Part shown: positions 29 through 54,125 of the stretch, in pieces | Position numbering within the stretch: position 1 is the stretch's first letter | How the letters are laid out: the number at the start of each line of letters is the position of its first letter | DNA from: a virus | Length of the DNA stretch: 64,000 nucleotides | IMG/VR virus record: IMGVR_UViG_3300044837_000077 | Location: 1-64,000 of that record | Strand: one strand, 5' to 3' | Made by a program: the position numbers and the translations under genes | The notes under the pieces: model-generated | What the model was told of the DNA's origin: nothing | The model's database searches: none | What the model saw: the letters and a program-made list of their open reading frames with translations, nothing else

Positions 29-415
29 ATGAAGAGGCTGCCCCACCGAAAATCGCCGAAACAGCGCTCGAGCGCGACGATTACGACGCAAAAGGCTGAC
101 GCAGATCCCCGTAGCCGGCTGACTGAATACCTGTTGAGCGTCATGGAGGACCCGAAGGCCGACCCAAAGCGCAGAGATGAGATGGCGGCCCATCTATCGA
201 AGGTCATGGCGTCTGCACAGCCGCGCGCTGGCCGACCGCCGGCCGCGCCGCGCGAGCCCGCGCAACCTCGTGTGTCGACCTACGTCAGTAAGAAGCGGCA
301 AGCCGAAACGCAGTCCAAGACAGCGCAGAAGAACTCCCCGTGGGACGGGCTCATCAACGGAAGTGCGCACCCGCCGTCGAACGGTCACGGCATTACCGAC
401 GAGGACGAGGCGTGA
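29..415 (+). CDS. terS: Terminase small subunit (putative)
   Basis: A 128-residue basic protein directly upstream of the large terminase. Small subunits bind the packaging site and recruit the large subunit during DNA packaging. Residues about 32-58 contain YLLSVMEDPKADPKRRDEMA, which resembles the 'MNDP..D..RRD.MA' helix of many phage small terminase subunits. The rest is Pro/Ala/Arg-rich and low in complexity. The stop overlaps the GTG of terL (GTGA), so the two are probably translationally coupled. The ATG lies 28 bases from the window edge with no clear ribosome site, so a start further upstream cannot be excluded. Confidence 0.7.
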   Translation: MKRLPHRKSPKQRSSATITTQKADADPRSRLTEYLLSVMEDPKADPKRRDEMAAHLSKVMASAQPRAGRPPAAPREPAQPRVSTYVSKKRQAETQSKTAQKNSPWDGLINGSAHPPSNGHGITDEDEA

Positions 416-3252
416 GCCGCGCCGCCCCTACAGTCCAGCGACGCTCGAAGCGGACGGCCAAGGTCGTATGCCCGCCGGCGGGCCCGACCGTCGACTTCTC
501 GACGATCTTGGATCTGTCGTGTCGGGACTGGGAGACGCGAATCCGTCAAGGCGCGTCATTGATGCCGCATGGGCTACGGCTCGACGCGGCGCGCTCTGAA
601 CGGGCGCGTCGCATGTTCGACCTACTGAAACTCCCCGACGTGACGGGAACCCCGACGTTCGGCGAGGTGGGCGGCGAGTGGTTCAAAGAGATCGTCGGCG
701 CCGTGTTCGGTACGTGGAACGGGGTGACGCGGGCGGTCAACGAGTTCTTCGTCATGGTGTCGAAAAAGAACTCCAAGGCGCTTGCGTTGGACACAATGGT
801 GGCGACGCCTGCGGGATTTACGACGATGGGCAGGCTCGCGATCGGCGATTGCGTCCTGGACGCCGATGGCATCCCGACGACGGTCACAGAGAAGAGCCCG
901 GTGTTCATTGGGCGCCGGTGCTTTGAGGTGGAGTTCAGCACGGGCGAGCGCGTGGTCTGCGACGCGGAGCACTTGTGGGTGACCGATGCGCATATCGATC
1001 GCGGCCGCAGCCGGAGCGACCGCAAAGTCGCTTATCCGTCTGTCAAGACTACCGAAGAGATTGCGCGCACGCTCTACGTCAAGAGCGGTAGCTTCACGAT
1101 CACAAACCACCGCACTCGCCTATGCAGTAGCCTGGATTTACCCGCAGTCTCGCTGCCCATCCCACCGTATGTGCTAGGCGCATGGCTTGGAGATGGCCAC
1201 GCGGCCTGCGCAAGAATCACATCAAGCAGGGAAGATGCCGAGCATCTCATTCAACAGATCACCGCATGTGGCCATTCCGCCGCAATAAAGGGATTCGACT
1301 CACGGTCCAATGCAGCGCGCATTTCAATTGGAGAACCGGGCGATCGCTCTGCGCATCTACCATACCGATTTAGGTCCGCCGCCATTAAGCTTAGGGTGCT
1401 CGGGAACAAGCACATCCCAGGGCAGTACCTACGATCGTCGCGCGCACAGCGACTGGATCTGCTACGCGGACTGATGGACACCGATGGATCGATCTCGATC
1501 AAAGGGCAGGCTTCGTATACAACGACGTCGCCGGCGCTGCGCGACGGTGTACTCGAACTGATAAATTCGCTGGGATTTAAGGCTAGTTTCTCTGAGCATC
1601 GCGCCATACTCAATGGCACTGACCACGGTCCCGTATGGAATGTGCAGTTCTGGCCGTTTGACGACGTTCCTGTTTTCACGATCCCAAGGAAGCTCGCGCG
1701 ACAGCGAACGAGCGTCGCCCGCAACGCGGCACGATCGAGGACTCGACAGATCGTCGCCGTCCGTGATATCGCCAGCGTACCGACCCAGTGCATCTCGGTG
1801 GCGAGTCAGACGCGGCAGTACCTCGTCACCCGCTCGTTCGTCCCGACGCACAACACGACCAACGCTGCCGGCATCATGGTGACGGCGATGATGGCGAGCG
1901 AACGGCCGCGGGCCGAGTTTCTGCTGATCGCACCGACGCAGCAGGTGGCGGAACTCGCGTTCAGCCAAGCGCTGGGCATGATCGAGGCGGATCCGGTCCT
2001 GCGCAAGATGTGCCAAATCAAGGACTACCAGAAGTTCATTCGGTTTCGTCCGACGGGTGCGTCGCTCAAGATCAAGAGCTTCGATCCGGCGGTGCTCACA
2101 GGTTCCAAGCCGGCCGGCGTGCTGCTCGACGAACTCCATGTCATTGCGGAGCACGCCAACGCCGACCGCGTCTTGGGGCAGCTGCGCGGCGGGTTGATCA
2201 GCAGCCCCGAGGCCTTCCTGATCACCATTACGACGCAATCCGAGCGCGTGCCCGTCGGCGTCTTTCGCACGGAGCTACAGAAGGCCCGCAAGGTTCGCGA
2301 CGGCGAGGTGAAACTCAAACTGCTGCCCATCCTGTACGAGTTCCCGGTCTCGATGGTCCAGGACGACTCATGGCGCGATTCGAAGAACTGGTGGATGGTC
2401 AACCCCAACAAAGATCGCAGCGTGACGATCCCTCGGCTTGTCGAGGACTATGAGAACGCGCGCTCGACCGGGGAAGAGGAACTGCGCCGCTGGGCGAGCC
2501 AGCACCTGAACATCGAGATCGGCCTGGCGCTGCACACCGATCACTGGGTCGGCGCACGCTTCTGGCAGAAGGGAGCGGTGCCGATGGACTTGGGTACGTT
2601 GCTCGAGCGATCCGAGACGGTCACGGTAGGGATCGACGGCGGCGGGTTGGACGATATGTTGGCGTTGACCGTATGTGGAAGGGACAAGGACACGCAGCGG
2701 TGGGTCGGCTGGACACGGGCCTGGATCCACGAGATTGCCATGGAGCGGCGCAAGAAGGACGCGCAGATCTACAAGGATTTCGCGCGCGACGGCGACCTCA
2801 TCATCGTCAAGAACATTGGCGATGACGTGACGGACTTAGGCGACGTCGTCGAGCAAATCGTCGACAGCGGCAAACTCGCCAAGGTTGGGATCGATCAGTC
2901 AGGGATCGGCAGCATCATCGATGAGTTGGTCTCCCGCGGTGTGCGCGGGCCCGACGACAAGGACTGCCAGATCGTCGGCATCCCTCAAGGCTGGCGCTTG
3001 ACGGCGGCAATCAAGACGGTCGAGCGCAAGCTCGCCGACGGTACGCTCACGCAGGCGATGCAACCCTTGACGCGCTGGTGCGCCGAGAACGCGCGCGTCG
3101 AGCCGCGCGGCAACGCGATCATCATCACGAAGCAGGCGTCGGGCTACGCAAAGATCGACCCCTTGATGTCGACGTTCAACGCGATCGAACTGATGTCGCG
3201 AAACCCCGCCCCGCAGAAGAAGTACGCAATGTTTTTTGTGGGAGGCGAGTGA
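412..3252 (+). CDS. terL: Terminase large subunit containing an intein
   Basis: DNA-packaging motor ATPase and nuclease. The precursor is 946 residues; removing the 359-residue intein leaves a 587-residue extein, normal for HK97/lambda-like TerL. The GTG at 412 was chosen because it follows a GAGG ribosome site and overlaps the terS stop. Joined exteins read SKKNSK-TTNAAGIMVTAM, the deviant Walker A of terminases, so the intein sits inside the ATP-binding loop. Walker B is GVLLDELHVI. The C-terminal RNase H-like nuclease starts at VGIDGGGLDDMLALTV, followed by a conserved DQSGIG segment. Packaging should depend on correct splicing. Family assignment is firm; nuclease residues are inferred by position. 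Confidence 0.95.
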   Translation: MSRAAPTVQRRSKRTAKVVCPPAGPTVDFSTILDLSCRDWETRIRQGASLMPHGLRLDAARSERARRMFDLLKLPDVTGTPTFGEVGGEWFKEIVGAVFGTWNGVTRAVNEFFVMVSKKNSKALALDTMVATPAGFTTMGRLAIGDCVLDADGIPTTVTEKSPVFIGRRCFEVEFSTGERVVCDAEHLWVTDAHIDRGRSRSDRKVAYPSVKTTEEIARTLYVKSGSFTITNHRTRLCSSLDLPAVSLPIPPYVLGAWLGDGHAACARITSSREDAEHLIQQITACGHSAAIKGFDSRSNAARISIGEPGDRSAHLPYRFRSAAIKLRVLGNKHIPGQYLRSSRAQRLDLLRGLMDTDGSISIKGQASYTTTSPALRDGVLELINSLGFKASFSEHRAILNGTDHGPVWNVQFWPFDDVPVFTIPRKLARQRTSVARNAARSRTRQIVAVRDIASVPTQCISVASQTRQYLVTRSFVPTHNTTNAAGIMVTAMMASERPRAEFLLIAPTQQVAELAFSQALGMIEADPVLRKMCQIKDYQKFIRFRPTGASLKIKSFDPAVLTGSKPAGVLLDELHVIAEHANADRVLGQLRGGLISSPEAFLITITTQSERVPVGVFRTELQKARKVRDGEVKLKLLPILYEFPVSMVQDDSWRDSKNWWMVNPNKDRSVTIPRLVEDYENARSTGEEELRRWASQHLNIEIGLALHTDHWVGARFWQKGAVPMDLGTLLERSETVTVGIDGGGLDDMLALTVCGRDKDTQRWVGWTRAWIHEIAMERRKKDAQIYKDFARDGDLIIVKNIGDDVTDLGDVVEQIVDSGKLAKVGIDQSGIGSIIDELVSRGVRGPDDKDCQIVGIPQGWRLTAAIKTVERKLADGTLTQAMQPLTRWCAENARVEPRGNAIIITKQASGYAKIDPLMSTFNAIELMSRNPAPQKKYAMFFVGGE
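778..1854 (+). other. Class 3-type intein with LAGLIDADG endonuclease
   Basis: Intein of 359 residues from Ala1 (ALALDTMVATPAGF) to the C-terminal THN, followed by Thr+1 of the C-extein. There is no Cys or Ser at position 1. The Trp-Cys-Thr set that marks class 3 inteins is present: Trp67 in EHLWVT (block B), Cys338 in TQCISV (block F) and Thr357 in VPTHN (block G). Class 3 inteins start splicing by attack of the block F Cys. A central LAGLIDADG homing endonuclease has two dodecapeptide-like motifs, LGAWLGDGHAA and LRGLMDTDGSIS. All motifs are intact and there is no frameshift, so splicing and homing look functional. Confidence 0.92.
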
Positions 3253-3464
3253 TGACGATGATACGCCAAATGCTCCCGCTGACTTACGGGCAGGCGCTCA
3301 CGCTGTTTCGCTATGCCGGTATCGGAAAGTGGCGTGTTCAAATTGGGAGCAGCGGCCCGCAGCGCTATCTAGGCGATTTCGATAGTAAGGAAGCCGCGGT
3401 CAGAGTAGCAACGCTTGCAAAAAGGGATCTTGGATTCCATCCGAATCACGGTGGCGACCGGTGA
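3252..3464 (+). CDS. Mini AP2-domain protein, HNH-deleted homing endonuclease remnant
   Basis: A 70-residue protein whose ATG overlaps the terL stop (TGATG). Residues about 10-22 (LTYGQALTLFRYA) match the start of the HNH-AP2 protein at 7240 (MTYEKARELFRYD). Residues about 24-70 (KWRVQIG...YLGDFDSKEAA...LGFHPNHG) match that protein's C-terminal AP2-like DNA-binding domain, including the shared ending LGFHPNHG. The central HNH catalytic segment is absent. It could be a decayed homing endonuclease or a short DNA-binding protein kept for another role. It is in frame and coupled to terL. Confidence 0.7.
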   Translation: MTMIRQMLPLTYGQALTLFRYAGIGKWRVQIGSSGPQRYLGDFDSKEAAVRVATLAKRDLGFHPNHGGDR

Positions 3465-7243: not shown

Positions 7244-7770
7244 CCGAGCGCGCTGGAATGACCTACGAGAAAGCAAGGGAGTTGTTTCGGTACGATCCAA
7301 TATCGGGGAAGCTCTACTGGAAAGTTAGATCGGCGCACTGCGTGAAGATAGGGGACGAAGTCGGGGCTGTTGTTCGATACGGCGCGCGCCGGTATAGGCA
7401 ATGCAACGTCGGAAATAGGCGTCTTCTTGTGCATCGGATCATTTGGTTATTGATATATGGAAGATGGCCAGAGAACGATATCGACCACGAAGACCATGAT
7501 GGGTTGAATAATCGCCGCGTCAATTTAAGGGATGTTGAGCGTCCGATTGGCAACAGAAATCTATCTTTACGTAGCGATAATACTAGTGGTTATCCAGGTG
7601 TTCATTGGTGTAATACCAAGAGCCGATGGACGGCTCGCGCGAAGATCGGCGGAAAGATTACCCATTTGGGTCTGTTTGTAAAGAAGAAGGCCGCTATTGA
7701 AGCATCGAAGCTCTCCCATGAGCAGTTGGGATTTCATCCTAACCACGGTAAGCAGAGAAAGTTGGCTTAG
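7240..7770 (+). CDS. HNH homing endonuclease with C-terminal AP2 domain
   Basis: A 176-residue free-standing homing endonuclease. LVHRIIWLLIYGRWPENDIDHEDHDGLNNRRVNL contains the HNH core (His, then IDHEDHDG, then N..VNLR); quoted in pieces, the key residues are H in VHRIIW, D-H in DIDHEDHDG and N in GLNNRRVNLR. NTSGYPGVHWCNTKSRWTAR starts the AP2 DNA-binding domain, ending LGFHPNHGKQRK. The gene is visibly more AT-rich than its neighbours, with many TTA/ATA codons, consistent with recent insertion. The ATG at 7240 overlaps the protease stop; ATG 7258 is an alternative. Confidence 0.9.
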   Translation: MTERAGMTYEKARELFRYDPISGKLYWKVRSAHCVKIGDEVGAVVRYGARRYRQCNVGNRRLLVHRIIWLLIYGRWPENDIDHEDHDGLNNRRVNLRDVERPIGNRNLSLRSDNTSGYPGVHWCNTKSRWTARAKIGGKITHLGLFVKKKAAIEASKLSHEQLGFHPNHGKQRKLA

Positions 7771-11640: not shown

Positions 11641-12609
11641 ATGAAAACCGACTTCCAGCGACTGTTCAAGGCGATTGGCGATGTGATGCTCGAGGCCTTG
11701 AGGCCGATCACGGCGAAGCTCGCCGAGCTCGAGGCTCTAAAGCCTGAGAAAGGAGAGAGGGGCGAGCCGGGTGTCAAGGGCGAGCCTGGCGGACCTGGGT
11801 TGCGTGGCCAACACGGTGAACCCGGCGTCAAGGGCGATACGGGCGAGCGGGGCGAGAAGGGCATTGTAGGCGAACGCGGTGAGCCTGGAGCCAAGGGCGA
11901 TGTTGGCATGCGCGGAGAACTTGGCGAGCGTGGACTGAAAGGCGATCCAGGCGAGCGGGGCGAGAAGGGCGTCAAGGGTGACGTCGGCGAGCGGGGCGAG
12001 CTGGGCGCGAAAGGTGAACCCGGCGGACTCGGCGAACGAGGCGCGCACGGTGAGAAAGGGATAGCGGGCGAGCGGGGCGAGAAGGGCGTCAAGGGTGACG
12101 TCGGCGAGCGGGGATCTCAAGGCGATCCCGGCGTGAAGGGCGACCTCGGCGTCGACGGTAAAAACGGGAATGACGGGATCGACGGCAAGGACGGCAAGTC
12201 AGTAACGATCGACGACGTTTTGCCTGCGTTGGATGGCGCTGTCGCGAAATGGATGCTCGAGGTCGAGCGACGCATCATGGACATGGCGCAGCGCGCGATC
12301 GAGGCGATGCCGAGACCCTGCGACGGCAAGGACGGAGTCGATGGGCTCAATGCCGACGAGTTCCACTTCAGCTTCGATCAGGAGTCGCGTCGGTTTACGG
12401 TAACGCATAAGGATCGCGTCGTGATATCGCAGCGCATACCGTATCCGAAGTATATCGACGTCTGGACGGAGAATTTCGGCCAGTACGAGGAAGGCTTTGT
12501 CGTTACGTTCGGCGGTCACGGTTGGATCGCGAAGCGCGACACGGCGTCGAAGCCCGGCACGGACGACTCATGGCAACTGTTCGTCAAGAAGGGGAGGGAC
12601 GGCAAATGA
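11641..12609 (+). CDS. Collagen-like virion protein
   Basis: A 322-residue protein. Residues about 38-185 are uninterrupted Gly-X-Y triplets rich in GEP, GEK, GER and VKGD, forming a predicted collagen triple helix. The N-terminal 37 residues (DFQRLFKAIGDVMLEALRPI) may be a trimerising or anchoring helix. The C-terminus (PYPKYIDVWTENFGQYEEGF, then GHGWIAKRDTASKPGTDDSW) is a domain repeatedly seen in phage collagen-like proteins next to portals. It begins one base after the portal stop and overlaps the connector by ATGA. It is probably a virion fibre or adhesive; Lys/Glu-rich triplets would help stability without hydroxyproline. Confidence 0.85.
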   Translation: MKTDFQRLFKAIGDVMLEALRPITAKLAELEALKPEKGERGEPGVKGEPGGPGLRGQHGEPGVKGDTGERGEKGIVGERGEPGAKGDVGMRGELGERGLKGDPGERGEKGVKGDVGERGELGAKGEPGGLGERGAHGEKGIAGERGEKGVKGDVGERGSQGDPGVKGDLGVDGKNGNDGIDGKDGKSVTIDDVLPALDGAVAKWMLEVERRIMDMAQRAIEAMPRPCDGKDGVDGLNADEFHFSFDQESRRFTVTHKDRVVISQRIPYPKYIDVWTENFGQYEEGFVVTFGGHGWIAKRDTASKPGTDDSWQLFVKKGRDGK

Positions 12610-19000: not shown

Positions 19001-21211
19001 CGTACGGCGCCCCAGGCGCCCGCGCCGCTCGCCGCGGGACCGGACGTCAGGGCAGATGTCGCTTCGCCTCAGGGAGAACGCCAAAGCGCTCCAGACGGCG
19101 GCTTTCCGACGATATCCGAGGTTCAGGCAACGGCGCCGGCCATCGCGCAGCCGTCTGCCGCTGCTAACCGTCCAGAATCGGCGGCGTTCCCGCCGCCCGA
19201 CGCCGAGGCGGCAGCGCCGACGTCTGCGACCATCGGCCAGATTGTGCCACCGGTGCCACGATCTGACGTTGGGGCCGCGCCGACCGCCACTGACATTGAG
19301 CGTCAAGGCGCTACTGGAGGCGTTGTCGGACCCCTGGACCAGCCGCTACGGATCGGTGAGGCAACGTCGTCGTTTCCGGATATACGCGCGCTCGCACCGG
19401 TCATCGACCTCTCGTCGCTGATCGCCGCGCGTCTGCCTGCCCAGCAGACCCGTCTGTTCTCCCCGCCGGAGACGACGGCTGCGGAGCGCTATCCGGCATC
19501 GAACGTGATCGCCTTTCCGGCGGCGGCGCAAGGCGGTCCTGTTTACGGAGGACAGACGGTCTACGTCGGTGAGCAGGGTCCAGAACTTCTGGTCAGCGAC
19601 TCGGGTGGCCAGCGGGCGTCGTCGGCGACGAGCAACGGGACGCAGGTCCCGCGAGACTTTGCCAGTTCACAGCTCATTGGCGTCAACGGTCCCGCGTACC
19701 TCACGCCGGCGACGGACGGATTCATCCTACCGACCGACGTGTTCGCGTCGCAGATACCGGCACAGCAGCAGATCGGGGGCGCATCAGCCTTTCCGAATGC
19801 CGCCAGCTATACGATGAACATCAACGGTATCGATACGCCGATCGGGCTCACCGAAACCTTTACGACCGATGCACAGGGTGTTACGTCCATCGGCGAGAAC
19901 GTGAACGCCTATGTCGGGATGATATTGCCAGCAGGCACAGTGACCGCATCTGGCGGTACGACCATCACGGCGAGCGACATCACTTACCCTCCGGGAAACC
20001 TGTCGCCAGATGAGTTTCTCGGTATCTACCAAGCCGGATCCGCTGCAGCACAACAGCAGCAGATGGGCGTTACGTTAGCGAGCTACGCCGCGGAGTTTAG
20101 CAATCCCCCTGAAAACAGCACACCGGGATCAGCAGCGGGATATTCACAGACCGGCGGTGGCAGTGTCGATAGCGGAGGATTAGCGGCGCCCGAGTCTCCG
20201 CTAGCGAGTACCGCGCAGTTCATCGGCCAACTGGAGAAGCGCGCAACTGGCGGCCCTGTCAGCGCCGGCAAGCCTTACTTGGTCGGCGAGACGGGACCCG
20301 AGTTCATTGTTCCGGCGACATCAGGGACAGTCCTTCCGGCTACGACCACGGCGGCTGCGCTTACCGCTGCAACTGCGGCGACAGTGGCAGCGACCGCTAA
20401 GGCGACCACAGAACTTTCCAGTCCAGCGACAAAAACCGACGTGGAAAAAGCTGCGTCCGATATCAAATCGCACATGGACAAAGAGTTCAAAGCCGAAATG
20501 ATCGGCTCAATTATCGGGGCGCTCGCGCCAATGATCATAGGAGCCGTCGCGGGCAGTAGTGGCTCCAGTATCGCTTCGCTCGCGGCGGTTGCGGCGTTTG
20601 CTGATGGCGGCCCCTTTACAGGCGGAGCGCCGATCCTGGTTGGCGAGAACGGCCCTGAGCTCATCGTTCCCGATGCATCAGGTACCGTCATTCCGAACCA
20701 CGCGATCTCGCAAGACTATATCCGCCAGCTATCGAACGCCACGGCGCCATCACCGCAATCAGTGACCGGGCAATCGGCCGCAGAGCGATCAAACGTGATC
20801 GCGTTCCCATCGCCCGCCACCTCCACTGCGTCGCAGCTCGACCAACCGACGTCAGCAATGATCGTCAAGATCGAGAACGTCATCAAGCAAGAGCAGCCGA
20901 TGCTGAGCGCACACGAATACGACGCGCTTCTCACCGACCGGTACTTGCAGAAGCGCGCGAGCGGCGGCCCGGTCAGCGCCGGTAAGCCTTACTTGGTCGG
21001 CGAGAACGGGCCTGAGCTGATGGTTCCAGACTCTGCCGGCACGGTGATGAACTCATGGGACGATTCGCAGAGCAACCGGTCGACGGTCGTTCATCAGTAC
21101 CTGAACTTCACGGTCAACACCCCGACGGGCAAGGTGGATCGCGCCTCGCAGGGTCAGATCGCGGCCAGGACATTGATGGCGGCCCAGATGGCGGGCGGAA
21201 GAAATAACTGA
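16016..21211 (+). CDS. Tail tape measure protein with repeated C-terminal motif
   Basis: A 1731-residue protein setting tail length. Residues 1-250 (LIVRLEAETSQYNAAITKAT..., FENLSHAVGVTTESLSQLSF, QAIFGRSGAEYIAFLDQGAA) are the phage minor-tail/tape-measure domain. A helical middle with hydrophobic segments around residues 270-310 follows. Around residues 820-915 are Ala/Thr repeats of about 14 residues (TTAGATELGAGI type). The C-terminal half carries the tape-measure tail motif GGPxxxGxxxxVGExGPElxV five times (about residues 918, 1172, 1412, 1531, 1650) plus two looser IGxxGPxY copies. Most tape measures carry it once or twice. Confidence 0.88.
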   Translation: MADLSSLIVRLEAETSQYNAAITKATEQISSFSDTVGSSIRDVAKDLLSLEALKQVFDFTDNIVKSMASFENLSHAVGVTTESLSQLSFAAKLSGVDDISSALEKMARSAGLAETGNAKLQGTFAALGVSLTDSSGKVKSSDQLFLDIADAVSKYNDGLAKTSAVQAIFGRSGAEYIAFLDQGAAAINAAKLEAIALGVDVSSSAAKAADEFEKDMVRIGAAGKGVFNKALEDVLPQFDALTKQIIAFAEETGNTDLYVEQLAAGFKVIGTVLVFVGTVFEAVGQTIASVLFSVVRETTAVADFLTTVWTDPIGAIKNYVGAQGEILSTYADVFKTIDAGGKAIEAIWDTKSINAWGIALDGAWDDIKKKPDLDLIDQTQIKAMEAAIDALAKLDDTLKQQVATYGLSGAAATVYDVTLGKLSASVAEVDKMNPVQAQQALAALEKQGKLSAASIDEINAAVAAGVPIGDAFKKSIIDEATALDQLKAVDLLSKLDSQLLTMTGHLEEASKAAFDLANRPLQVNIQTQQDKTTFSGLDNSQAAALAVSQLNDLNAQAITIEDALGKKIADVDAAGAAAGESNLQIAGEEAVARQGAISQLEALYVKAQALAEATGFASATEEAKMLQGAIGAIQFNPKIVDDVNALTEAQKKLLDVTAKEKVANDDLAQTMADLAKQNSQGALTDLDYMAKQDDARQKAIDQLTELEKAAKAVSDANPNNAEDLDKWKKLGVEITNLQTQMGQLAKTVRTDLTDDLTSAFVDFADGTKSAKSALQSFAADFEKQMLTLAAKDLFQKLFESTGISAGIDSLFGGATKAASGLAGSTAAATTISTAMTTAATAGATALGTGITTGTTAGATELGAGITTAATAAAAEMGTAITTAGTAAAAEMAAAIAGGSAAGSGVSAGTALAASAAAGGGPIPANQLTLVGEKGPELYVSDLGAQTAAAATKAGTAIPEDLTHAHVIGADGPEYIRPNASGFVVPSDVFLSALAERTAPQAPAPLAAGPDVRADVASPQGERQSAPDGGFPTISEVQATAPAIAQPSAAANRPESAAFPPPDAEAAAPTSATIGQIVPPVPRSDVGAAPTATDIERQGATGGVVGPLDQPLRIGEATSSFPDIRALAPVIDLSSLIAARLPAQQTRLFSPPETTAAERYPASNVIAFPAAAQGGPVYGGQTVYVGEQGPELLVSDSGGQRASSATSNGTQVPRDFASSQLIGVNGPAYLTPATDGFILPTDVFASQIPAQQQIGGASAFPNAASYTMNINGIDTPIGLTETFTTDAQGVTSIGENVNAYVGMILPAGTVTASGGTTITASDITYPPGNLSPDEFLGIYQAGSAAAQQQQMGVTLASYAAEFSNPPENSTPGSAAGYSQTGGGSVDSGGLAAPESPLASTAQFIGQLEKRATGGPVSAGKPYLVGETGPEFIVPATSGTVLPATTTAAALTAATAATVAATAKATTELSSPATKTDVEKAASDIKSHMDKEFKAEMIGSIIGALAPMIIGAVAGSSGSSIASLAAVAAFADGGPFTGGAPILVGENGPELIVPDASGTVIPNHAISQDYIRQLSNATAPSPQSVTGQSAAERSNVIAFPSPATSTASQLDQPTSAMIVKIENVIKQEQPMLSAHEYDALLTDRYLQKRASGGPVSAGKPYLVGENGPELMVPDSAGTVMNSWDDSQSNRSTVVHQYLNFTVNTPTGKVDRASQGQIAARTLMAAQMAGGRNN

Positions 21212-21846
21212 TGCCGACGATCACCGCTGATACCGAGTACGCGACGTTCCCTGAGTGCCCGGGATTCGGTTTCACGGTTGAGCCCCGGTATATGACCAAG
21301 GCGATCGATGGGGAAGGGGGTCAGGAACGGATCGATCGACGGTGGGACAAGCCGCTCTCATTTTTCACGGCCGTTCCAACGGGAAATCGCGACGCCGATG
21401 TGGTTCAGAACCTACTCAACTTCTGGCATGCCGTGGGAGGGACGAGCAATCGTTTCCGGTTCAAGGATTGGACTGATTACAAGAGTTGCAAGACCAATCA
21501 GACGCCTACGGCGATAGATCAGCCATTCGAGGTGGTCGTCGGTAGTGGGTACCAGATGATTAAACAGTACGTCGCGGGACTGAGGACGCAGAATCGTGAG
21601 ATCTATCGTCCCGTCGGTTCCACTATCGTTGTGGCGAATACGCTTGGCGCGACGCAGACAGACTGGATACTCGACGAATCGACAGGGATTCTGACGCCAG
21701 GTGTCGGGTTTGTCGGCACCCCTGGGTCATGGGGTGGTGAGTTCGACCTTCCCTGCAGGTTTCTCACGGACTATTCGCTCACTGTCGAGGACGGCGTCGA
21801 TATTCAGAGCGGATCGTTCACCTTGCGTGAATGTAGGCCGAATTAA
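21211..21846 (+). CDS. DUF2460 distal tail protein
   Basis: A 211-residue protein of the DUF2460 family, found in phages and gene transfer agents as the distal tail component joining tube and hub. Features include FPECPGFGFTVEPRYMTKAI, NLLNFWHAVGGTSNRFRFKD-W, and GSWGGEFDLPCRFLTDYSLT. The start overlaps the tape measure stop by one base. The next gene begins with a second, diverged copy of the whole domain. Confidence 0.88.
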   Translation: MPTITADTEYATFPECPGFGFTVEPRYMTKAIDGEGGQERIDRRWDKPLSFFTAVPTGNRDADVVQNLLNFWHAVGGTSNRFRFKDWTDYKSCKTNQTPTAIDQPFEVVVGSGYQMIKQYVAGLRTQNREIYRPVGSTIVVANTLGATQTDWILDESTGILTPGVGFVGTPGSWGGEFDLPCRFLTDYSLTVEDGVDIQSGSFTLRECRPN

Positions 21847-21848
21847 AA

Positions 21849-24800
21849 ATGATCATACTTGCCGATACGACGTATGAGAAGTTTCCCGAGTGTCCCGGGT
21901 TTGGCTTCACGGTCGAACCCAGGTACCTGACGAAGGCCATCGAGCGCGAGGGCGGCCAGGAGCGCGTCGATCGACGATGGGATCGACCGTTGGCGTTCTT
22001 TACTGCCGTGCCGACGAGCAACCGCGACGCTGACGTCATCCAGAATTTGCTCATCTTCTGGCACGCCGTCGGCGGGACTGCCGGGCACTTTAGGTTCACG
22101 GACTGGACCGACTACAAGAGCTGTAAGACGAACGAGACGCCCACCGCATTGGATCAGCCTTTTGAGGTTGTCGGCGGCGCGTACCAGATGATCAAACGGT
22201 ATACAGCCGGCCCGATGTCGCAGGATCGCGAGATTTATTGCCCTGTTGGCTCGACGATCGTCGTGGCTAATACTCTGGGCGCAGTGCAGACGGACTGGAC
22301 GCTCGACGAGGCGACGGGCCTGTTGACGCCGGGCGGCGGATTCGTCGGCACGCCAGGCTCGTGGGGTGGGGAATTCGACTTGCCTTGTAGGTTTCTGACG
22401 GACTACACGGTCACCGTCGTTGACGGCAAGGACATTCAGAGCGGTTCGTTTACTTTGCGCGAGCGACGGCCGAATGAAGGCGGAAGCAGCGGCGGTGGTG
22501 GCGGTGGCGGTGGTGGCGGTGGTGGTGGTGGTGACGGTGGCGGTGGCGGTGGCGGTGGCGGTGGCGGTGGTAGCCCGAGTCTGCCGTTCACGATGCCCGA
22601 TCTGGCGACATTGTTTGCATCGCCGAAAGTGGTGTTCGCGCACTACTTCTACACGTTCCCGCTATCTATCGACAACCGAGCGTCGGCGGTCGATTACTAC
22701 AACGTCCAGTTACTCACGATCGGTGGCGAGAGCGGCAGTCATGCGCTCTATGGTGGATACCTGCGACAACGACCACTGCCCGTGCCCATCGGTAGTCCTA
22801 CGACGTTCAAACAGGACAACATGCAGACCGAGGTCGCGACGGCGATGGCGCGTGGCATCACGGCGTTCGCCATCGATATCCTGAACCTCGCCGATGCGCT
22901 AGACGCGAATGGCCACTTGCAACAACTGTTGTTAGCGGCGGCGGCCGTCGATAGCAGATTTAAGGTCATGGTCATGCTGGATATGTCCAATGGAAACTTG
23001 AGCAGCTTTGCTGACGCGGCTTCTGTCATCCAGGCTGTTGCGACCTCGCCGGCGATATTTACATTGCCGACTGGCGAGATTCTGTTTTCCGCGTACCAAG
23101 CCGATGCGCAAAGCGTGTCGTGGTGGACGTCGATGATAGGGGTTTTGACGACCGCAGGTATCGCCACGAAGTTCATGCCGGTCTTGCTCGGTGGCGCGTC
23201 GGACGCCGGCTCGCTTGACCCTGTCAGCTACGCTGTCGGCGCCTGGGGCACGGCGATTGTGTCCGCAGCCACGAGTCTCGTCACAGCGCCGGCGACCGCG
23301 CACGGTAACGGTCTCAAATACATGCTGCCCATCCTGCCGCAGCAGTTCCGGCCGAAGGATCAGAAATACTGGGAAGCCGGCAACAGTCAGACGTTCCGCG
23401 CATCATGGAAGTCGGCGATCGATGGTGACTCGGATTATGTACAGGTTGTGACGTGGAGTGATTTCTCCGAGTCTGGGCAGGTCGAGCCGTGCACGGATGC
23501 GACGCTCAACCTCAACATCGGTACCGGGTTCTACGATCTCAACGCGTATTTTGCCGCGTGGTATCTGACAGGCACAGCGCCGACCATTACTGAGGATCGG
23601 TTGTACTGGTTCCATCGCCGCATGCCGCTCAATGCAGCTCATCCTGATCAGGTTGACAACTTCACCTGTGAAGGCGGTACGCCGTCCGATCTCATCGAGG
23701 TGGTGGCGTTCCTGACCGCACCAGGAACGGTGACGATCAGCGTGGGCACGACATCGGCGTCGTTCGCCGCGTTAGCCGGAGTGAGCTCGCACACGCTGCC
23801 GCTCGCGGCCGGCATACCGGTATTCAGTCTTACCCGCAGTGGGACGACGGTGATCTCACAGTCGGGACCGATGCAGATTTACGGCTCGGGTGGTGATCCT
23901 ACGGGAACGCTCGACTTCACCTACTGGAGCGGGAGCGTATCGGGCGTTGCAGGCGGTGGGATTGGTGGGGGTGGAGGCGGCGGAGGCGTCGCAACGCCGG
24001 TGTTCAACTTCGCGAACTTCTCTGGTGCTCCCAGCACGATCGCGCTTTCTGGCAATGCTATTTTTAGCGGCGCTGACATTAGGCTGCTCAACGTTTCTCA
24101 GCACGATTCGTGCAGTGCGTGGTACACGACAAAGCAAGCGCCAGCCGCATTCACGACGCAATTTACGTTTACACCCACCGGGATCACCAACACCCCGGCA
24201 CAAGCAGGCATCACGTTCTGCATCCAGAACACTACGTTTCCACCAGGAGCATCGGGTGCTGTAGGGCTCACTTATCGCGGCGATGCGAACATGTGCGGAT
24301 ATGGGGGAGCGAACAACCAAAACCCGCCAGTCGATGCGATTGCCATCAAATTCGACGCGAGCAGCATCAGCAATCAGGGCTATCCGGCCGGTGGAGTCCC
24401 TGCCTCAACGGGCCTGTATTTAAACGGCGGCCCCAACATTATTCCGGGCGGCAATCTCGGATTGGTGCCGTACAACGATTTAAGCCACACCGGGATTAAC
24501 TTCTATAGTGGCCATACCTTTGCGGTCACTATCGTCTATGACGGTAGTTTGATCACGATGGTGATTCGGGACACCACGACGGGCGCTCAGGCGCGCAACG
24601 TGTGGCCGCTGAATCTCGCCAACACCACGAACCCTTCAGGAAACTTTGTAGGCTTCACCTGTGGAACGGCTACGACCGGTGACGGGACATGGGTACTGGA
24701 TAGTTGGGCCTATTGGACGGGCTTCAACACGCGCCTCGCGACGCCCGCGCTGAGCCCAGTGCCTGGATCATATTCAGGCACGCAAGGCGTCTCGATCAGC

Positions 24801-25652
24801 GGCCCTTCCGGCGCATCGCTGTATTACACGACGGATGGAACGCTGCCGACCAGTTCATCGACTCAGTACACTGGAACGCCGATCTCTATAGCGGCAAACC
24901 AAGTCATCCAGGTTGTCGCGATCGAATCGGGCTTCACGGATAGCTTAGTCGGGGGCGGCAACTACCAGATCAGCACGTCGAACCGGATCAATTTCCCGAG
25001 CGGATTCTCTGCGGGTAACTTAATCACGGGCGGCTTCGCCTACCTGAGTGGGTCTGCCTATCGCGTTAGCGATACCACCACCAACACCGTCGGCGCTGTT
25101 TGGTTTCCTGCGCCGGTTCCGGTTTCGTCTTTCTCAACGGCCTTCACGCTGCAATGGGGATCGTCGGGGCAAGGCATGGGATTTGTCCTTCAGAACAGTC
25201 CTCAAGCCTATGCCAGCTTGAGCAACGCAATGAATGTGCCGGGTGGACCGACAGTGGTTGGCCAAAGTGGCGGCTCTGCGGGTTACGGGGGAGTGAACAA
25301 TTCTGCCGGCATGCTCAATAGCATCGCGCTATTTTTCAATCAATGGGCGGGTGGTTCTGATCCTGGTAACAGCGTCGGCCTTTATACCGCTGGCGCTTTC
25401 CCGACCGGGAATCAAATTGCTACCGCACTCACTTTCAGCAGCGGTCACGCCTTCAATTGCGTGCTGACTTACAGCGGGACGACGCTCACGCTGTCCATGA
25501 CGGACGCCACGACCAGCGCTAACTTCACGCATAGCTGGACGGTGAACATTCCGTCCGCTGTCGGTGCAAGCACTGCCTATGCGGGTTTCGTGGGCGGCAC
25601 CGGTGGCGCAGCTTCGATTGCGTCACTCATCAAGTGGACATATGCAGCTTAA
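21849..25652 (+). CDS. DUF2460-polyGly-GH71-lectin fusion, putative tail-tip depolymerase
   Basis: A 1267-residue protein. Residues 1-208 are a full second DUF2460 domain (FPECPGFGFTVEPRYLTKAI). Residues about 212-242 are a Gly linker. Residues about 260-570 look like a GH71/GH99-type (beta/alpha)8 glycosidase: KVVFAHYFYTF, GITAFAIDILNLADAL, RFKVMVMLDMSNGNLSSFAD and EILFSAYQADAQSVSWW parallel the 'vFaHy', 'GidaFaLni' and 'FKlf.s.D' motifs of alpha-1,3-glucanases. A beta sandwich precedes a second Gly run near 705. Residues 715-955 and 1045-1267 are related L-type-lectin-like domains, flanking a chitobiase-C-terminal-like module (YYTTDGTLPTSSSTQYTGTP). Attachment plus polysaccharide hydrolysis is inferred. 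Confidence 0.8.
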   Translation: MIILADTTYEKFPECPGFGFTVEPRYLTKAIEREGGQERVDRRWDRPLAFFTAVPTSNRDADVIQNLLIFWHAVGGTAGHFRFTDWTDYKSCKTNETPTALDQPFEVVGGAYQMIKRYTAGPMSQDREIYCPVGSTIVVANTLGAVQTDWTLDEATGLLTPGGGFVGTPGSWGGEFDLPCRFLTDYTVTVVDGKDIQSGSFTLRERRPNEGGSSGGGGGGGGGGGGGGDGGGGGGGGGGGGSPSLPFTMPDLATLFASPKVVFAHYFYTFPLSIDNRASAVDYYNVQLLTIGGESGSHALYGGYLRQRPLPVPIGSPTTFKQDNMQTEVATAMARGITAFAIDILNLADALDANGHLQQLLLAAAAVDSRFKVMVMLDMSNGNLSSFADAASVIQAVATSPAIFTLPTGEILFSAYQADAQSVSWWTSMIGVLTTAGIATKFMPVLLGGASDAGSLDPVSYAVGAWGTAIVSAATSLVTAPATAHGNGLKYMLPILPQQFRPKDQKYWEAGNSQTFRASWKSAIDGDSDYVQVVTWSDFSESGQVEPCTDATLNLNIGTGFYDLNAYFAAWYLTGTAPTITEDRLYWFHRRMPLNAAHPDQVDNFTCEGGTPSDLIEVVAFLTAPGTVTISVGTTSASFAALAGVSSHTLPLAAGIPVFSLTRSGTTVISQSGPMQIYGSGGDPTGTLDFTYWSGSVSGVAGGGIGGGGGGGGVATPVFNFANFSGAPSTIALSGNAIFSGADIRLLNVSQHDSCSAWYTTKQAPAAFTTQFTFTPTGITNTPAQAGITFCIQNTTFPPGASGAVGLTYRGDANMCGYGGANNQNPPVDAIAIKFDASSISNQGYPAGGVPASTGLYLNGGPNIIPGGNLGLVPYNDLSHTGINFYSGHTFAVTIVYDGSLITMVIRDTTTGAQARNVWPLNLANTTNPSGNFVGFTCGTATTGDGTWVLDSWAYWTGFNTRLATPALSPVPGSYSGTQGVSISGPSGASLYYTTDGTLPTSSSTQYTGTPISIAANQVIQVVAIESGFTDSLVGGGNYQISTSNRINFPSGFSAGNLITGGFAYLSGSAYRVSDTTTNTVGAVWFPAPVPVSSFSTAFTLQWGSSGQGMGFVLQNSPQAYASLSNAMNVPGGPTVVGQSGGSAGYGGVNNSAGMLNSIALFFNQWAGGSDPGNSVGLYTAGAFPTGNQIATALTFSSGHAFNCVLTYSGTTLTLSMTDATTSANFTHSWTVNIPSAVGASTAYAGFVGGTGGAASIASLIKWTYAA
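22482..22575 (+). repeat. Polyglycine-coding GGY triplet repeat
   Basis: About 30 consecutive GGT/GGC codons interrupted by AGC and one GAC link DUF2460 to the glycosidase. The tract is prone to length change by slippage. It may set the reach of the enzyme from the tail tip. A second shorter Gly tract lies at 23953-23987, before the first lectin-like domain. Confidence 0.9.
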
Positions 25653-48260: not shown

Positions 48261-48475
48261 CTGAGCGGTTCGACTTTCCGCCGCGCTCTGTCGTATACGC
48301 GCCGCGTCATCTTGATATCGATATGCCCCGCAAGCAGGTAGGCCGAATCCAGGCTCAGGTTGTCGGAGATCGACTTCGCCCTGAGATCATGGAAATGGAA
48401 GCGCGCGTTCCCGGCCTTCTCCCATGTCCTGCAATAGCGCTGCCACATAGCCCGGAAGCCGTCAGGGCTACTCAT
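48257..48475 (-). CDS. Tyrosine recombinase C-terminal fragment
   Basis: A 72-residue protein with only the end of a tyrosine recombinase catalytic domain: ARFHFHDLRAKSISDNLSLD (HxxR) and LLAGHIDIKMTRRVYDRARR (His, Tyr nucleophile). The N-terminal domains and Arg I are absent. ATG 48475 has AGGAGA upstream and overlaps the end of the HNH gene. It could be the remnant left when an HNH gene entered an integrase gene, or a kept truncated protein. A full integrase exists at 42484. Confidence 0.75.
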   Translation of the reverse strand: MSSPDGFRAMWQRYCRTWEKAGNARFHFHDLRAKSISDNLSLDSAYLLAGHIDIKMTRRVYDRARRKVEPLR

Positions 48476-48953
48476 CTGGGTGTCTCCTATCCCGATAGTC
48501 GCGTCCATACTTTATGCTCCGCGCACGTCGTTCTTCCTTTTTAGCCTCGCTGCGTCTCGGCATTGGTACCCCGAAATGGAGATGCAGCAACGTGGCGCTG
48601 GAGACCTTGAGGCGCTCCATCCAGACCTTCATCGGCGCAGTCTCGCCGTCGATGGTTATAAGTCGTGTCCGTCGCGTGTTGCACGCCTGTTCTTGCTTCG
48701 TGGCCCAGCGGCAATTGGACGGCTCATAATTGCCGTTGTTATTGATCCTCTCAAGTGTATGCGCTGGCGTAGGCTTCGGCCCCATATCAGCCACGAAGGT
48801 GGCAAAGCTCGCCCAGCGTTCGCACACCTTGATACCTCTGGCACCATACCGAAAATAGCTTTCATCTCTAGGATTGTTGCAGCGATCTCGCATGCTGCAC
48901 CATGTGGAGTAAAGAGGCTTGCCGCGGTTCTTGTTCGGGTAAGAGCGCTTCAT
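48468..48953 (-). CDS. HNH-type endonuclease-like protein
   Basis: A 161-residue protein of the phage HNH-like family. YSTWCSMRDRCNNPRDESYF, then RYGARGIKVCERWASFATFV, then LERINNNGNYEPSNCRWATK and QEQACNTRR. The last part is a family signature ('RiDn.G.Y.p.NcRWat..eQ..N'). The C-terminal 50 residues look like a DNA-binding helical part (APMKVWMERLKVSSATLLHL). ATGA coupled to the 48950 gene. Confidence 0.8.
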   Translation of the reverse strand: MKRSYPNKNRGKPLYSTWCSMRDRCNNPRDESYFRYGARGIKVCERWASFATFVADMGPKPTPAHTLERINNNGNYEPSNCRWATKQEQACNTRRTRLITIDGETAPMKVWMERLKVSSATLLHLHFGVPMPRRSEAKKEERRARSIKYGRDYRDRRHPDE

Positions 48954-49108
48954 TTGCGCGTCTCTCGCCATGCCGCTAGATCGTCCACCGGCGCCCACAG
49001 ATGGCCATTCGGCGAATAGCAGATCGGCGTCGAAAGCTCCCCCTGAGTTTCCTTCAATTCGTCGGCTTCCGCCTCGTCCGTAACCTCCGTCCATTTTTCC
49101 TTGACCAT
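48950..49108 (-). CDS. Small early protein, unknown
   Basis: A 52-residue protein (MVKEKWTEVTDEAEADELKE, ending VDDLAAWRETRK). AAGGGGA precedes the ATG. Its stop overlaps the HNH start (ATGA). It was probably an original operon gene beside the HNH insertion point. Confidence 0.6.
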   Translation of the reverse strand: MVKEKWTEVTDEAEADELKETQGELSTPICYSPNGHLWAPVDDLAAWRETRK

Positions 49109-49182
49109 TGAAATCCCCTTGTTTCAAAGAGGATTCCAATATTAATGACGAATCAGCTCCGAAAATTCCAGAGGTGAAGCAT

Positions 49183-49197
49183 GGCGCAAATTGCGCC
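49183..49197. repeat. Inverted repeat in AT-rich gap
   Basis: GGCGCAA-A-TTGCGCC, perfect 7-base arms with a 1-base centre, in a 134-base AT-rich gap (49109-49242) between early genes. It may be a protein-binding site. No terminator U-run follows on the minus strand. I see no coding sequence in the gap. Confidence 0.4.
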
Positions 49198-49242
49198 GAT
49201 TTATCAAAGACTTGCGAGGCAACTATTTGCATTTTTTCTGCA

Positions 49243-49650
49243 TCACTTGAAAAACGAAGCATGGAATTCACTAGACTTTCCTCCCTCACTCGGTTCTGTC
49301 ACGCCGACGCAAGCTAGAACGCGACGGTATTTCTCTGGCGTGTCGTGGCCGTCCCACGTCCCTTCGTATGCCGGTAACTTGCTGAACAGCCATGCTTGCG
49401 AATCATGGTAATGCCAAGACACCTGGCCTGTTGGCAGGTCGATGTACACGCACCCGTGCCAATCTGTCGACCAGCCTTCAATGGCCGTCCTAGCGGTTCC
49501 TGTGCGGTATCCCAACTCCAAAGCCGTGCGCGCCATGAACGCAACGCACTTATTGCGCTCAAGATATGCGCCGTCCTTTTCCTTTTTCATCACCAGCCAC
49601 GCATCTAGCGCGATGCCGGCGGCCGGATTGATTTCCCTGATATCGCTCAC
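49243..49650 (-). CDS. Conserved phage early protein (WDGH type)
   Basis: A 135-residue protein. KCVAFMARTALELGYRTGTA, then DWHGCVYIDLPTGQVSWHYH and LPAYEGTWDGHDTPEKYRRV. The 'vsWH.hd.....f..lP.y...WDGH.t..ky.R' block occurs in many phage early proteins of unknown role. GTG 49650 is preferred because it has GGGGAG upstream. Confidence 0.65.
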   Translation of the reverse strand: MSDIREINPAAGIALDAWLVMKKEKDGAYLERNKCVAFMARTALELGYRTGTARTAIEGWSTDWHGCVYIDLPTGQVSWHYHDSQAWLFSKLPAYEGTWDGHDTPEKYRRVLACVGVTEPSEGGKSSEFHASFFK

Positions 49651-53198: not shown

Positions 53199-54092
53199 TC
53201 AGTCAGCCACGCGCACGAGTTCTTTCGGGGTGTACTCCACCTGCTGCGGGATGAGCCACTTCCCCGCCGGCACCCGCGCGGTGGAATGCTCTTCGTGCAA
53301 AAGGTCGGCCGGCACCGAGACATCGAGATAGCGCGCTCCGCCGTGGGCCACGTAGAGCTTGATGCTCTGGGTTTGGTCTAAGAACTCGAAGCGGTGTTTG
53401 TGGCCGGTCACTTCCCCGTAAGCGAGAATGACTTCATTTTTAGACTCTTGTGCCACCGCATCACATGGAATCTTATCGATCGGAATCAGTAAAACATCGC
53501 CTTGCCGTATGGGAGATTTCTTCATGTCAATACCCTCAAAGCGCCATTGAAAACCGCCATGCCGTTTACGCTTCCCTAGGCAGCATGCGGATATATGTCG
53601 AAAACCGAGACCAGTGATTCTCGCGGCATCTGAGACGCCAGCAAAATACTTGCGGGTACCGTCGGAGGCTATTTGTACAACCGGCTTAGAATGCGGATTG
53701 TCAGCACCGAATTTTCCGAGCCATGGCTTAATGATCGCGTGCTTCACGCCGAGTACTCGGAATGCGTGTGTGACGTTCAGCGGGTCATTCGTCCATTCCA
53801 GATTCGCGGCTGTATTATTGGCCTTAACACCGTCTTGGTGGTTTACGTCGGTTTTATCCTGGGGTGGCTCGCCATTGAACGCTCGACACACGAGCCGATG
53901 GAGTAACGCGTTAACGTTCGTGCCGTCTCCGCGATACAAAACTACCGAAAAATAGCCGCCGGTATCTTCTCGCGCGGTGAGTATTCTCTCTCGATATACA
54001 TAACGGCGCGGCAAACTCTTGACGCGTCCGAGATTGGATATTTCGTACATTCCTTCAAAACCAGGAATGGGTTTCCACCTCTCAATTCCCAT
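53199..54092 (-). CDS. NUMOD4-HNH homing endonuclease fused in frame to phage protein
   Basis: A 297-residue frame from ATG 54092 (GGAGATATC upstream). Residues 1-185 are a homing endonuclease: NUMOD4 (WKPIPGFEGMYEISNLGRVK), HNH (LHRLVCRAFNG, VNHQDGVKANNTAANLEW) and a NUMOD1-like end (KPVVQIASDGTRKYFAGVSD). Residues 190-297 start MKKSPIRQGDVLLIPIDKIP and contain YGEVTGHKHRFEF, YLDVSVPADLLHEEH and WLIPQQVEYTPKELVRVAD, a common phage early protein normally encoded alone. Internal ATG 53525 follows a GAGG site, so the phage protein is probably also made by itself. Confidence 0.82.
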   Translation of the reverse strand: MGIERWKPIPGFEGMYEISNLGRVKSLPRRYVYRERILTAREDTGGYFSVVLYRGDGTNVNALLHRLVCRAFNGEPPQDKTDVNHQDGVKANNTAANLEWTNDPLNVTHAFRVLGVKHAIIKPWLGKFGADNPHSKPVVQIASDGTRKYFAGVSDAARITGLGFRHISACCLGKRKRHGGFQWRFEGIDMKKSPIRQGDVLLIPIDKIPCDAVAQESKNEVILAYGEVTGHKHRFEFLDQTQSIKLYVAHGGARYLDVSVPADLLHEEHSTARVPAGKWLIPQQVEYTPKELVRVAD

Positions 54093-54125
54093 ATCGATAT
54101 CTCCTGTTTGAAATTCATTCATACG

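Follow-up and report, generated by a model that had tools for sequence, protein, structure and literature searches.

The gene for the terminase large subunit of an IMG/VR phage (record IMGVR_UViG_3300044837_000077, of which positions 1 to 64,000 were analysed and are referred to here as the window) is interrupted by a 359-residue insert, which, judging from residue alignments, a predicted structure and comparison with empty sites, is very probably a class 3 intein that is full-length and carries a LAGLIDADG endonuclease. It is located between the Lys and the Thr of the Walker A motif and is probably active. The insert occupies positions 778 to 1854 on the plus strand, which also carries the terminase parts and intein features given below. 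Class 3 inteins that carry an endonuclease are found commonly at the terminase P-loop of phages, those of proteobacteria included, and the window intein is ordinary in this respect.

The terminase open reading frame (412-3252) begins with a GTG codon at 412 and contains the intein in frame. The N-extein (412..777) ends with SKKNSK, which includes the Walker A lysine, and is recognized by the Pfam family TerL_ATPase over precursor residues 89-126. The originally predicted coordinates hold: the translation of 778-1854 comprises 359 residues without a stop, starts with ALALDT and ends with VPTHN, and is followed by Thr. This Thr, the +1 residue of the intein and at the same time the Walker A Thr, is the first residue of the C-extein (1855..3252), which constitutes the remaining terminase large subunit. 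The C-extein (1855-3249) matches the phrog_9 family "terminase large subunit" (4e-94), and its best matches to cultured phage terminases reach ~47% identity, in Salmonella, Escherichia and Pseudomonas phages. In mycobacteriophages, P-loop inteins of the TerL1-a type split the Walker A motif of the terminase between its Lys and its Thr (Kelley et al., 2016; PMC5050341), and the window intein, inserted between SKKNSK and TT in a protein with TerL_ATPase and phrog_9 matches, belongs to this type of insertion between the TerL Walker A Lys and Ser/Thr.

Terminases with an empty site were located by a search with the C-extein alone. The closest, termed L018, is 94% identical in the C-extein and 86% identical in the N-extein, and is uninterrupted across the site (..NEFFIMVPKKNSK TTNSAGIMVTAM..); further relatives (L019-L023) are also insert-free, and in all of them KKN(S/A)K is followed directly by TTN. 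Because these relatives read straight through, both intein junctions, namely Ala1 at the start and Asn359 at the end, are fixed, and the interruption falls exactly between SKKNSK and TTNAAG, in agreement with the original prediction. No second copy of the intein is present in the window's own 67 kb record, and none was found elsewhere in the records of the empty-site relatives, which are fragments.

The middle of the intein harbors a LAGLIDADG (DOD) homing endonuclease domain (1150..1707, ends approximate), with LGAWLGDG as the first and LLRGLMDTDG as the second motif, and with the acidic residues of both motifs, Asp139 and Asp236, kept. Pfam identifies LAGLIDADG_3 (2e-8) and Hom_end in the insert, while NCBIfam matches to the intein are weak and partial only. 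The AlphaFold model of the intein has a mean pLDDT of 89.3 and a pTM of 0.88, and the Foldseek ranking against the PDB is headed by PI-SceI, a two-domain intein with endonuclease (E 3e-20), followed by archaeal endonuclease-bearing inteins and then by class 3 DnaB inteins; the latter match the splicing domain of the model, for which a HINT fold is thereby predicted, with TM scores, by target length, of 0.81-0.88 (6rix and 6bs8 chains), and I-DmoI matches the endonuclease part. Within the viral library, the best match of the model is a mycobacteriophage terminase. Comparison with three related IMG/VR inteins (L015, L002 and L003) gives pN/pS values of ~0.2-0.5 in both the splicing and the endonuclease parts, and although synonymous sites are near saturation and the ratios are rough, this pattern does not look like decay. 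Taken with the conserved sequence, the motifs, the Pfam matches and the PI-SceI-like fold, the endonuclease thus looks intact, as had been proposed. A degenerate intein, which either splices with a dead endonuclease or is dead in both parts and leaves the terminase inactive, is very unlikely: the lower GC content of the middle of the intein (56-58%, compared to ~63% in the surroundings) could be taken as a sign of it, yet points to foreign origin rather than to decay, and the open frame, the presence of every splice residue and of both LAGLIDADG acids, the conservation of the endonuclease region and the confidently predicted fold all argue against it.

The assignment to class 3 is supported by the splicing residues as well as by the fold. 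By sequence, the nearest solved structures are class 3 inteins, namely 6rix/6riy (M. chimaera DnaB1) and 6bs8 (M. smegmatis DnaB), with E values of ~2e-23 to 3e-22, and the N-terminal splicing half (778..1122, end approximate), which contains blocks A and B with Cys48, Asp62, His65 and Trp67, aligns with these. The C-terminal splicing part (1735..1854) contains blocks F and G. In the alignment with 6rix_A (E 2e-23), Trp67, Cys338, Thr357, His358 and Asn359 fall on Trp67, Cys124, Thr143, His144 and Asn145, respectively, and the triplet Trp67/Cys338/Thr357 likewise matches the class 3 triplet Trp67/Cys118/Thr137 of the M. smegmatis DnaBi1 intein (PMC6195587). The class 3 signature consists of Trp at B:12, Cys at F:4 and Thr at G:5, a position 1 without a nucleophile and Ser/Thr at +1 (PMC5222942; PMC5050341). 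The window intein has Ala1 rather than Cys, Ser or Thr, Trp67 at B:12 (codon 976..978), Cys338 at F:4 (1789..1791), the predicted initiating nucleophile, and Thr357 at G:5, followed by His358 and Asn359 (1846..1854) and by Thr+1, with His65 also in place; both the class 3 positions and the residue numbering had been predicted correctly. In addition, Asp62 stands where class 1 inteins have the block B threonine, which class 3 inteins generally lack, and a role has been reported for the block B Asp (PMC6195587).

Conservation among relatives points in the same direction. His65, Trp67, Cys338, Thr357, His358 and Asn359 show no variation among 15 inteins that were aligned from viral as well as bacterial contigs and are 32-64% identical to the window intein, and the class residues Trp, Cys and Thr are found in 122/122 non-redundant viral inteins (window intein included), a set that was gathered with block B and C patterns, so that the Trp count is biased, while Cys338 and Thr357 are in no pattern. 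Since six positions are invariant at such low identity, and Cys338 and Thr357 are present in all 122 inteins, the catalytic set is not due to chance. A class 2 intein, in which the +1 residue attacks the N-terminal junction directly and Cys338 is non-catalytic, would likewise have Ala1 and lack the N-terminal nucleophile, but it should lack the Trp-Cys-Thr set, and the presence of this complete set in alignment with solved class 3 inteins, the invariance of Cys338 and a Thr at +1, as is usual in class 3 (PMC5222942), make this reading extremely improbable.

The splicing steps proposed for the class 3 intein of the window are those generally known for the intein family. Cys338, activated by His65 together with Thr357 and with Trp67 packed alongside, would attack the peptide bond between Lys and Ala1, leading to a branched intermediate at block F, from which the N-extein would be transferred to Thr+1. 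Asn359 would then cyclize with the aid of His358 and thereby release the intein, and a final acyl shift would yield the joined exteins SKKNSKTTNAAG. Because the intein divides the Walker A loop, the unspliced terminase should be unable to hydrolyze ATP. Terminase genes that lack the intein would be cleaved by the endonuclease at the insertion site, and homing would then copy the element into them.

The distribution of relatives argues for a mobile intein, since the closest intein sits in a more divergent terminase and the closest terminase is empty: the intein of L015 is 64% identical to that of the window with a C-extein of only 52% identity, and L018, with its C-extein of 94% identity, has no intein. 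Six IMG/VR terminase inteins (L015, L002, L003, L119, L120 and L044), which share site and class with the window intein at 55-64% identity and differ in being carried by other phages, form one clade with it (7 inteins, SH-aLRT 100) in a quickly built tree with many open forks, of which only this clade around the query was used. The clade, the dip in GC content and the empty nearest terminase fit an element that arrived at a conserved site through homing.

The phage itself encodes a portal, a prohead protease, an HK97-like capsid protein, a 1731-residue tape measure protein and an integrase, and therefore looks like a temperate siphophage. Its tail proteins include DUF2460, phiJL001 Gp84/BR0599 and Rcc01698 proteins; the relatives of the Gp84/BR0599 protein are mostly from Caulobacter, Rhodobacter and Roseobacter phages, and those of the capsid protein from Pseudomonas, Escherichia and Rhizobium phages. 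On account of these tail proteins and relatives, a proteobacterial, perhaps alphaproteobacterial, host is likely, which leaves the proposed proteobacterial siphophage plausible. One scan of genome contigs retrieved distant inteins only. Other genes of the window include a homing-type endonuclease gene of the HNH_3 type between the protease and capsid genes (7270-7767) and one of the NUMOD4/HNH_3 type on the minus strand (53199-54122). Directly after the terminase gene lies a 68-residue open reading frame (3258-3464), which resembles a stray AP2-type endonuclease tail and shares its LGFHPNHG ending with the HNH protein encoded at 7270-7767; L018 has an unrelated reading frame there. The C-terminal half of a minus-strand reading frame at 48468-49289 is HNH/AP2-like by eye (CNNP..YGARGIKVCERW), with no Pfam match. 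The DUF2460 gene is duplicated (21211-25652), the second copy having glycosyl hydrolase 71 and legume-type lectin domains as well as a poly-Gly linker, and a collagen-like repeat protein is encoded directly after the portal gene (11641-12609).

Cys48 (codon 919..921) occupies the same alignment position as Cys48 of the M. smegmatis DnaBi1 intein, where a disulfide between Cys48 and the catalytic Cys118 forms upon oxidation and splicing stops (PMC6195587). The authors of that study termed this cysteine non-conserved, and every Cys48 mutant failed to splice (PMC6195587). Among viral class 3 inteins (loci L002-L198), Cys48 is present in 93/122, or in 48/65 representatives after clustering at 50% identity, and it forms the second most conserved cysteine column; it is found in 68/77 inteins of the loose-scan IMG/VR set, where the patterns do not touch Cys48, and in 21 of the 41 members of a more distant IMG/VR set. 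By analogy with DnaBi1, the intein could act as a redox gate on DNA packaging, with a Cys48-Cys338 disulfide keeping the terminase as an ATP-inactive precursor until the cell is reducing again, but we regard this as unlikely; the conservation of Cys48 may reflect a structural need instead of redox control, and is a lead rather than a finding.

The original prediction called class 3 a minority class and considered an endonuclease-bearing member in a proteobacterial siphophage terminase worth recording; the rarity that this implies is overstated. Of 50,697 phage records, 738 were matched in a tblastn search with the intein, in 500 cases across at least 80% of the intein length, although not every one of these belongs to class 3, and a loose scan of IMG/VR gave at least 595 relatives among the 600 stretches listed. 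Within the IMG/VR set, which was collected by similarity to the window intein and is not a census, 97/122 non-redundant full-length class 3 inteins sit between Lys and Ser/Thr, and 26 of the 30 C-exteins tested (that of the window included) match the phrog_9 terminase large subunit. Among the phage inserts that were read, class 3 residues together with an endonuclease domain at the terminase P-loop are found in those of Mycobacterium phage NelitzaMV, Stenotrophomonas phage SOVA965 and Escherichia phage ECD7. The NelitzaMV intein shares the equivalent site, the Trp, Cys and Thr of class 3 and the LAGLIDADG domain, but is only ~41% identical, has a C-extein of only ~25% identity and comes from an actinobacterial phage. 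SOVA965 is, like the window phage, proteobacterial, whereas its intein is 39% identical and has Pro at position 1; with MLTDG in the second LAGLIDADG motif, the endonuclease of this intein may be weakened. The intein of ECD7 gp17, inserted between SRQLGK and TT, is 34% identical and resides in a T4-type terminase. The DnaB1 inteins of M. smegmatis and M. chimaera (6bs8, 6rix) share the class 3 residues at matching positions and Cys48, and that of M. smegmatis also the P-loop insertion, but they are mini-inteins in DnaB without endonuclease, in contrast to the endonuclease-bearing intein in the window terminase. Three terminase inserts were rejected as precedents: those of Klebsiella phage YX3973 and Aeromonas phage pIS4-A do not have the class 3 set, since the block F Cys is missing and their start is of the Cys type or unclear, and that of Vibrio phage JA-1 lacks the block B Trp. 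Pro occupies position 1 in 18/122 class 3 inteins; L010, L155, L160, L162, L174, L184, L185 and L187 seem to start with Pro rather than Ala, several of them at junctions of the type AAQVGA/P or AQVGK/P.

The prevalence of Cys48 opens the redox-toggle idea to wide testing. Most viral class 3 inteins examined retain this cysteine, so that redox gating, if the idea were true, could be a general feature of class 3 inteins in phages and not peculiar to one DnaB. The frequent occurrence of class 3 inteins at P-loops in phages agrees with the proposal that the class originated in phages. The window intein is one more example of a large class; what it contributes is a precisely defined natural empty site for a class 3 intein of full length, in a phage with a likely proteobacterial host.
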